A DNA stretch of 64,000 nucleotides, taken from NCBI GenBank assembly GCA_902727935.1, contig CACVAX010000039.1, positions 1 through 64,000 of the forward strand, in the 5' to 3' direction. Shown here in pieces: positions 1,478 to 3,561 of this stretch (position 1 is the first letter of the stretch; each line of letters begins with the position of its first letter). Source of the stretch: an uncultured Sulfurovum sp. (GTDB lineage Bacteria > Campylobacterota > Campylobacteria > Campylobacterales > Sulfurovaceae). A program made the translations under genes and the position numbers. Under the pieces are notes generated by a model that was not told where the DNA came from, made no database searches, and worked only from the letters and a program-made list of their open reading frames with translations.

Positions 1478-2284
1478 TTAGATTTTTTCTTTACAAATTT
1501 TGCAAGTTATATAGGAAGGTTTATTTCTTAATCGTTCTCTTTTTATATCCATTGTATAAGATTCTGTTTTTTCTAAGTATTTTTCTAATTCATTCATATA
1601 TAGATTGTATTTTTCGGTAAAACCTTTTGATTGAGATTCAATAAGTTTTCTGATAATTTTTCCTAGTGTTGTATGCACTTCAAACTCTCTCATTATTGAA
1701 ATTGGATTTAACTCATTTAGCTTCTTTTTTAAATTTATATCTTCTTTTAGGGTGGCATTGGGTAAACCATTTTTAATTTCAGAGTCATCTAAAGGGTGAA
1801 TCCATTGTCCATGAGCAATTTTATTTCTAATTCTAGACGGTTCTTCTATGTATTTTTGTAATAACAAAAGGAGTTTATTTTTCTTTTCTTGAATTAGGAG
1901 TTTTTCTTCTTTAAATTCTTGACATAGACGTCCAACTTGATTTGTTTGATTATTGTCTTTTAATAGTTGTATAGATTTTTCTTTTTCTATAAAATTATAT
2001 CTTTCTATCTTATCAAAAGAATAGTTAATTAACTTTTTCCATTTGTCAAATATTCCTTTTACCTTCAACATACTATTAATCTCATTTGTAGTAAATGCAT
2101 TGGGAGTATATATGATTTGAATAAATTGAGCTTCTGACCAAGCACTATAGGCTAAAGCTAACAAATTTACTCTCATGTCTTCTTTCAGTGTATTTGATTT
2201 TTGTATGGATTCGTTAATATCTTGGTTTAATTGTTTAATTACTTTTCTAAGATGCTGTACATTTTTAGTTTGTTTTTGAAACAA
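1478..2284 (-). CDS. HEPN-domain-like protein with C-terminal CxxC, unknown function
   Basis: This 268-residue, lysine-rich, mainly helical protein contains RNKIAH at about residues 153-158, which matches the R-x4-H signature of HEPN ribonuclease domains, followed by GQWIHP. The C-terminus ends in a short CKICKEKI that could bind metal with a partner. HEPN proteins are often RNases in toxin-antitoxin or phage-defence systems, but no partner minimal nucleotidyltransferase is adjacent. It lies alone between dnaE and a tRNA-like element, next to toxin-antitoxin genes, and its base composition is more AT-rich than that of dnaE, which suggests an acquired gene. The function is not established. Confidence 0.6.
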   Translation of the reverse strand: MFQKQTKNVQHLRKVIKQLNQDINESIQKSNTLKEDMRVNLLALAYSAWSEAQFIQIIYTPNAFTTNEINSMLKVKGIFDKWKKLINYSFDKIERYNFIEKEKSIQLLKDNNQTNQVGRLCQEFKEEKLLIQEKKNKLLLLLQKYIEEPSRIRNKIAHGQWIHPLDDSEIKNGLPNATLKEDINLKKKLNELNPISIMREFEVHTTLGKIIRKLIESQSKGFTEKYNLYMNELEKYLEKTESYTMDIKRERLRNKPSYITCKICKEKI

Positions 2285-2309: not shown

Positions 2310-2401
2310 TGGGTCTATAGTGGGGGGGGACGGAATTGAACCGTCTTCACAAAATTGTGTTTTATCCTTGTCTACCCCATAAAGTTACCTTTATAGACCC
2401 A
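2310..2401 (-). ncRNA. tRNA-like structured element (degenerate tRNA or small structured RNA)
   Basis: On the minus strand a 92-nt segment is closed by a perfect 10-bp inverted repeat (TGGGTCTATA / TATAGACCCA). Inside are a tRNA T-arm of consensus form (GACGG TTCAATT CCGTC, plus 2329-2345), a CACAA-AA-TTGTG hairpin (2348-2359), a run of C followed by A like a tRNA 3' end, and a GGGG that could pair with the C run. The spacing from GGGG to the terminal A is only about 58 nt and no D-arm can be drawn, so it is not a standard tRNA. It may be a decayed tRNA, a tRNA-like RNA or the trace of an integration site. Confidence 0.4.
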
Positions 2402-2822: not shown

Positions 2823-3014
2823 CTACAAACAACCATTTAGCTCTCATTGTATTATTTTTTATAGAATTTATTCCAGCTATAACTCCTAAAAAGTGTTATT
2901 TTTACTAAGTATACTTCGTAAAAATCATCTTTAGAATTGGAGTTTTCGACTTCAAATACATTTAAGTGATATTGTAGCTCAAAAAGGCTACAATAAAAAT
3001 AAAAAGGATTGACT

Positions 3015-3284
3015 GTGACATTAGATACAACGGTTAGAGCAAGAGTTGATAGTAATCTAAAAAAAGAAGTTGAAGAGATTTTACAAGAAGTTGGACTTAG
3101 TACTTCACAAGCTATCACACTATTTTTAAAGCGTATTAAGTATGAGAAAGGAATTCCTTTTGAGTTAAAGGTTCCTAATGCAATAACTATTCAAGCAATG
3201 GAAGAGGCAGAACAAAATGATGGAGAGACAATTAGTTTTGAGGAGTTTCTAGAAGAAAGTCAAGCTGATGCTAAAACTCTTTAG
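3015..3284 (+). CDS. RelB/DinJ family antitoxin
   Basis: The protein has the ribbon-helix-helix pattern of RelB/DinJ antitoxins: TVRARVDSNLKKEVEEILQEVGLSTSQAITLFLKRI, followed by an acidic C-terminal tail. It would repress its own operon and neutralise the YafQ-type toxin encoded next. The ORF track starts at TTG 3009, but AAAAAGGA lies immediately before it, so GTG 3015 gives a better spacing of six bases and is preferred. The end overlaps the toxin gene by 17 bases, the usual coupling of such pairs. Confidence 0.85.
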   Translation: MTLDTTVRARVDSNLKKEVEEILQEVGLSTSQAITLFLKRIKYEKGIPFELKVPNAITIQAMEEAEQNDGETISFEEFLEESQADAKTL

Positions 3285-3561
3285 GGCGAAAACATTTTTA
3301 AAAGATTATCGAAAAATTAAATTTACGGATAAAACCTATTTAAAATATGTAGTTTCTATAACAACTCTGTTAAAAGAAGAGCATTTACCTAAAGAAGCTT
3401 TAGACCATCCATTAAAAGGTAACTATAGCCAATTTAGAGAGTTTCATGTTAGTGGAGACTTACTTGTTATTTACTATATAGAAGATGAAACTTTGAAGCT
3501 TGTTCGTATTGGCTCCCATTCAGATCAGAGTTGTTTGATTAATGTTGATGAAGAAGAGTAA
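3268..3561 (+). CDS. YafQ/RelE-type mRNA interferase toxin
   Basis: The 97-residue protein matches the YafQ branch of the RelE toxin superfamily: FRAKTFLKDYRKIK at the start, then DHPLKGNYSQFREFHVSGDLLVIYYIED and a C-terminal VRIGSHSD, which corresponds to the catalytic-histidine segment of YafQ (G[ST]HSD). YafQ toxins cleave mRNA on the ribosome. All core motifs are present, so the toxin is probably active. It overlaps the RelB-type antitoxin gene. The last residues (QSCLINVDEEE) extend slightly beyond the usual end. Confidence 0.87.
   Translation: MLKLFRAKTFLKDYRKIKFTDKTYLKYVVSITTLLKEEHLPKEALDHPLKGNYSQFREFHVSGDLLVIYYIEDETLKLVRIGSHSDQSCLINVDEEE

Follow-up and report, generated by a model that had tools for sequence, protein, structure and literature searches.

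The tRNA-like element at positions 2310 to 2401 of the window (the whole 64,000-nucleotide stretch of uncultured Sulfurovum DNA analysed here) is the 5′ leader of a gene coding for a HEPN-type protein (1478-2284, minus strand), and a same-strand tRNA-like RNA bearing a T-arm lies directly 5′ of this gene in every intact relative with enough upstream sequence. By analogy with the systems compared below, the pair is probably a toxin-antitoxin module of the AbiF or type III kind, in which the RNA antitoxin would mimic the tRNA elbow. Since the minus strand is the sense strand, the element would be transcribed into the downstream HEPN gene. The linked gene, the strand and the D-arm found in most relatives are all additions to the first-pass annotation of the element.

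That annotation had described a perfect tRNA T-arm and a C-run followed by A, enclosed in a perfect 10-bp inverted repeat, and all three are confirmed in the minus-strand sense. The T-arm GACGG-TTCAATT-CCGTC (2345-2329) is exact and unique in the genome, and directly after it comes CCCCCCCA (2328-2321), which ends with the acceptor-like 3′ strand CCCCA (2321-2325). The element, 92 nt in length from outer stem to outer stem, is closed by TGGGTCTATA (2401-2392) and TATAGACCCA (2319-2310), which form the 10-bp repeat. Alignment with the type 1 relatives described below places the acceptor-like 5′ strand TGGGG, followed by a TA linker, at 2375-2379, and at the position of the anticodon arm, as in the relatives, folding gives a hairpin CACAATTTTGTG of the CACAA-TT-TTGTG type (2348-2359) without a 7-nt anticodon loop. 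A predicted −10 box TATAAT is located at 2406-2411, with the transcription start predicted at about 2400, and in the window neither a −35 box nor a terminator between the RNA and the gene passed a simple scan.

The assembly containing the window comprises 2.4 Mb in 60 contigs and is 84.6% complete. In the window, ARAGORN made no calls and Rfam gave no matches at the gathering threshold, so these two of the checks proposed in the first-pass annotation yielded no confident standard tRNA or tmRNA. With relaxed thresholds, the minus strand scored 15.1 bits against the tRNA model and 17.3 bits against the tmRNA model. A canonical tRNA was rejected, as the element has no 7-bp acceptor, no 7-nt loop with a constant anticodon and no call by a tRNA finder. 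A tmRNA consists of tRNA-like ends around approximately 300 nt with a tag reading frame; this identity was also rejected, given the score of 17 bits and the presence of the genuine tmRNA of the genome on a different contig (149 bits). A weak match to the snoRNA TtnuHACA25 (19.6 bits against a cutoff of 100) was taken as chance, and the exact 3′ half of the RNA was absent from the viral contigs searched. The folding of the element is modestly unusual (z about −2.4 to −2.6), and it is not on folding alone that a chance origin is excluded but because the arrangement, a cloverleaf in the relatives, recurs 5′ of every intact one and the outer stem carries compensated changes in four Campylobacterota members (the window and loci L042, L043 and L089).

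The protein encoded at 1478-2284 contains 268 aa, has a TTG start and possesses the sequence RIRNKIAHGQW, with RNKIAHGQW at residues 153-161. It could not be placed in any family of Pfam, NCBIfam or PADLOC. A search of 84,980 species genomes returned 46 related stretches, and in an alignment of 35 sequences N8, E51 and R153-NKIAHGQ-W161 are invariant, part of the RNKIAHGQW invariance being selected for because one of the search patterns included NKIAHGQW; members found later have RNKL or RNR and still keep R-N-x3-H. The HEPN ribonuclease signature is Rx4-6H with a polar residue after R (Anantharaman 2013, PMC3710099), and R153-N154-x3-H158, together with an invariant E, agrees with it in all 35 sequences. 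The AlphaFold models of the family are confident and all helical (pLDDT 93.5 for the window protein). Foldseek gave no significant structural match, with one HEPN entry, 4nqf, at E 1.2, so the HEPN assignment is made from the motif and the all-helical model. A PDB profile search found nothing significant, and the Pfam HEPN models were each matched by at most two of the 35 members with E about 0.001. The gene starts with TTG both in the window and in L042, and in the Sulfurovum relative L043 (position 5001) no ATG, GTG or TTG is present at the expected start, the aligned codon being ATT; these start codons suggest that the HEPN gene may be weakly translated.

About 55 intact relatives, some of them near-identical, were found in at least eight phyla: Campylobacterota, Pseudomonadota, Bacteroidota, Cyanobacteriota, Deinococcota, Myxococcota, Bacillota and Actinomycetota. 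The upstream RNA is also present in members found independently by protein search, namely those on plasmids (L116-L118), on viral contigs (L095-L100) and in genomes (L089, L114, L115), three of the viral-contig members having four of the five T-stem pairs. The chance background of the T-arm motif with all five pairs, measured in the same loci, is 0.006 per 200 nt (about 0.6%). The RNA is missing at L077 and L087, where the genes are broken, and at L078, L079 and L083, which start at or near a contig end. The linkage also holds in the reverse direction: the RNA model R1, derived from 18 type 2 RNAs, detected a second RNA in the Olleya locus L054 preceding a second, previously unseen HEPN paralogue, and in 395 genomes from the class of Marinifilum (G306) its top two matches (60 and 53 bits) both precede HEPN genes. 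The other 28 top-ranked loci have no HEPN gene and each contains a tRNA called by ARAGORN, mostly Gln, Glu or Arg-CCT. The window's own element was missed by R1.

The usual form of the RNA is a cloverleaf with an acceptor of 4-7 bp (usually 5), a TA or TC linker, a D-arm of 3-4 bp whose loop contains GG, a hairpin at the anticodon position that varies in both length and loop and is followed by 1-7 linker bases, and a 5-bp T-arm with a TTCRA loop. Some of these RNAs are labelled as tRNAs by ARAGORN, with anticodons that are two- or four-letter or unrelated. The covarying homologues that the first-pass annotation had suggested looking for thus exist: 19 of the 20 modelled pairs are changed on both sides in the relatives' RNAs (43 model-aligned sequences, a minority of which, e.g., L057:4529, L061:9898 and window:15031, are possibly genuine tRNAs or chance hits), and the covariation score is 0.598 compared to 0.191 for shuffled and 0.07-0.22 for slid alignments. 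The best-supported helices are the acceptor (92% paired), D (83%) and T (more than 97%) stems, and the anticodon-like arm is too variable for alignment. Because MAFFT did not align the RNAs by structure, the analysis relied on a covariance model together with a cloverleaf parser; the parser optimises pairing, which inflates its paired fractions and makes shuffles the fair comparison, and 39 out of 50 RNAs exceed the 95% shuffle level. The window element does not pass the parse because it has no D-stem.

Two types of the RNA can be distinguished. Type 1 RNAs, including that of the window, have GGGG/CCCC-like acceptors and no extra hairpin, and their proteins form one clade of the protein tree with 100% SH-aLRT. 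In type 2 RNAs, an additional hairpin of about 15 bp begins at the acceptor 3′ strand, which therefore has two possible partners, the 5′ strand and a downstream strand, the two showing 81% base likeness compared to 35% in crossed controls. For all 33 type 2 RNAs, prediction favours the downstream hairpin over the acceptor stem in stability; the closed form of the cloverleaf may therefore exist only transiently, and, judging from these predictions, the competing pairing looks like a switch. A T-run follows the type 2 hairpin in a few members, mainly from Bacteroidota, and a T-tract terminator between the RNA and the gene is evident in a few relatives only. The RNA architecture changes once on the protein tree, compared to 13.5-13.6 changes after shuffling, and the RNA and the protein have therefore diversified together, on a tree that intermixes phyla.

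A Campylobacterota clade (99%) unites the window with L042, L043 and L089; in its RNAs a clear D-stem is missing, and an outer stem of 8-11 bp closes the structure. The statement of the first-pass annotation that no D-arm fits is thus right for the window and its branch but does not extend to most relatives, in which the D-arm is present. The 5′ strands of the outer stems, TGGGTCTATA, ATGCGTCTATG, TGGTCTAC and GAGGTCTAT, each have their complement, so that all four members keep the stem with several pairs differing on both sides, four being a small number of sequences. From these sequences, the D-stem has apparently been lost in this subtype and the outer stem acquired. In two Bacteroidota members (L081:671-740 and L082:4536-4605) the D-arm is close to that of a canonical tRNA and the protein is extended at its N-terminus (289-329 aa as read from the frame); these members possibly stand near the way a real tRNA gene was recruited.

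In many members the −10 box ends approximately 5-8 nt before the RNA, so the transcript is predicted to begin with the RNA. The box is TATAAT in Campylobacterota, where it precedes the outer stem by 3-7 nt in each of the four members, and TATATTTG-like in Bacteroidota, and the gammaproteobacterial members have good promoters (TTGACA-17-GAAAAT or CAGAAT).

The module is rare, being found in two of 397 genomes of its own phylum and, besides the query, in one of about 400 sampled Pseudomonadota species, and its distribution is patchy, with horizontal spread. In G1439, a genome of the same genus, a different gene lies between dnaE and the DJ-1 gene, and the RNA-HEPN pair is absent along with the neighbouring toxin-antitoxin genes. 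In the window these are a Phd/YefM-type antitoxin gene without a recognisable partner toxin (2503-2751), with the HEPN module on one side and a RelB-YafQ pair (3009-3561) on the other, and the Phd/YefM gene, the HEPN module and the RelB-YafQ block are all missing in G1439. The neighbours of the relatives include genes for integrases, AbiEii, McrBC, Fic, PARIS-like ATPases, restriction enzymes and RelA/SpoT, as recorded in a scan run without a control set. A TBLASTN search of the L067 relative against phages and a distant BLASTN search of the L063 pair against E. coli genomes returned nothing.

The Olleya locus (L054:1791-4290) contains two RNA-HEPN pairs in tandem, organised as separate units, one of type 1 and the other a distant paralogue with RNRIAHGQW, between attC-like repeats (AACACCGTATAA...CATAAACGTTAGG); from this arrangement, the module may be mobilised as an integron gene cassette that brings its own promoter. 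By inspection of repeats, L054 has attC-like flanks with GTTAGG-type cores, L068 and L072 are also flanked by repeats, and none were seen in the window. Loci L058 and L059 share an identical upstream RNA region and aligned protein; they come from bins named Acidovorax and Algiphilus with similar contig and bin naming, and the identity reflects either recent transfer or bin contamination.

In the proposed mechanism, a promoter is followed by a tRNA-mimicking small RNA and a HEPN ribonuclease gene. The protein would be an RNase that blocks translation and is thereby toxic, its likely substrate being tRNA or an RNA handled via the tRNA elbow. The small RNA, which would copy the elbow and the acceptor branch of a tRNA without the decoding loop, may bind the HEPN protein and hold it inactive by substrate mimicry. 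One promoter would serve both the RNA and the mRNA, with the RNA kept in excess by transcription or processing stopping after it and by weak translation of the toxin. Loss of the RNA, for example on shutdown of host transcription by a phage, would then free the nuclease, and we infer a possible role in phage defence. The order of promoter, RNA and HEPN gene is the same as in AbiF-RCd22 and resembles type III modules, which by analogy favours the toxin-antitoxin reading, while the single RNA copy, in place of the repeat array of classical type III, and the terminator, evident in few relatives and not in the window, count against it.

Among other readings, it is conceivable, though rather unlikely, that the RNA acts solely in cis: the tRNA mimic would be an operator, bound or cut in its own leader by a HEPN tRNA-binding RNase that thus limits its own synthesis. 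The E. coli threonyl-tRNA synthetase likewise binds tRNA-like structures in its own mRNA. The location of the RNA at the extreme 5′ end of the message, the switch-like alternative partners of the type 2 acceptor 3′ strand and the weak TTG starts of the window and L042, which suit tight control, all agree with such a leader, but type 1 members, including the window, have no competing hairpin, an operator needs less than a full covarying cloverleaf, and the T-run after the hairpin in some relatives would end the RNA before the gene. It is more doubtful that the RNA serves as a bait for a phage- or stress-induced factor that processes or cuts tRNA, with damage to the bait, not its decay, activating the HEPN effector. 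Cleavage of tRNA is common in phage-host conflict, and the elbow (the T-loop and the GG of the D-loop) is the most conserved part, with the anticodon-like hairpin free to vary; however, it is the anticodon arm that such nucleases usually target, and because this arm is not conserved there is no shared bait loop.

The first-pass annotation had offered three options for the element, a degenerate tRNA, a novel tRNA-mimic RNA and a recombination site. Conservation, covariation and promoter placement all speak strongly for the tRNA mimic, but the other two are not sustained. It is highly improbable that the element is what an integrating element left behind of a tRNA or tmRNA gene, or that it is a recombination or attachment site: the weak tRNA and tmRNA scores and the attC-like repeats adjoining some relatives would fit it, but the T-arm is unique in the genome, the repeats lie outside the RNA-gene pair, and the covarying structure persists in different phyla immediately 5′ of a single gene family, a conservation which refutes this explanation.

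If the toxin-antitoxin reading is true, the module represents a second HEPN-RNA pair, apparently unrelated to AbiF, with an RNase that probably acts on tRNA and is held by a substrate mimic. To our knowledge, RNA antitoxins are known for few protein folds only. No Rfam family matches the RNA, and the family is previously uncatalogued; if it is what it seems, it is now missed by annotation or mislabelled as odd tRNAs. The system is small, consists of two parts, is testable and occurs in cultured bacteria such as Shewanella metallivivens, Oceanospirillum maris and Olleya namhaensis. No matching description was found in the literature covered, which comprised papers available without subscription and a minority of preprints.

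AbiF is a relative of the ancestor of Cas13, and a HEPN-RNA pair of the AbiF kind gave rise to Cas13. Like the present module, AbiF (Abi_2) with its ncRNA antitoxin RF03085/RCd22 combines a HEPN protein having an RN..AH motif with RX4H spacing and a structured ncRNA placed as the 5′ leader, with one promoter, the toxin gene downstream and a patchy mobile distribution (PMC12373285). Most AbiF transcription stops after the RNA, which neutralises the toxin (PMC12373285). The two differ in that hhalign gave a probability of 0.2% against 13 AbiF proteins (99.7% for the positive control) and the AbiF RNA consists of short hairpin motifs, not a tRNA-like fold. RF03085 had no match in the window at the gathering threshold or among the weak matches, Pfam Abi_2 did not match the HEPN-type protein, and an upstream T-arm is absent in 12 of 13 sampled abiF genes. 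The remaining one, L152, has a perfect upstream T-arm motif, which may belong to a real tRNA gene beside an integrated element.

Type III systems (ToxIN, CptIN, TenpIN) share the location of an RNA 5′ of an RNase gene in a single operon; their antitoxin consists of short pseudoknots repeated in tandem and has a terminator (PMC5086642). The ToxN fold is not HEPN, whereas here a single tRNA-like copy precedes an all-helical HEPN-like protein. With tRNAs, of which Gln, Glu and Arg-CCT are the nearest by model score, the RNA shares the order of the cloverleaf, the UA-like linker at positions 8-9, the GG of the D-loop and the TTCRA T-loop, but it differs in the 4-7 bp acceptor, in having no constant anticodon or 7-nt loop and in the encoded CCA, usually missing in the family RNAs. 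The protein resembles HEPN toxins in general (PMC3710099) in its Rx4-6H motif, polar residue after R and all-alpha content. On balance, it is somewhat easier to believe than to doubt that these modules form a widespread and previously undescribed class of RNA-controlled RNase toxins, an uncatalogued HEPN family neutralised by an RNA mimicking the tRNA elbow, which would have evolved separately from AbiF/Cas13 and ToxIN.
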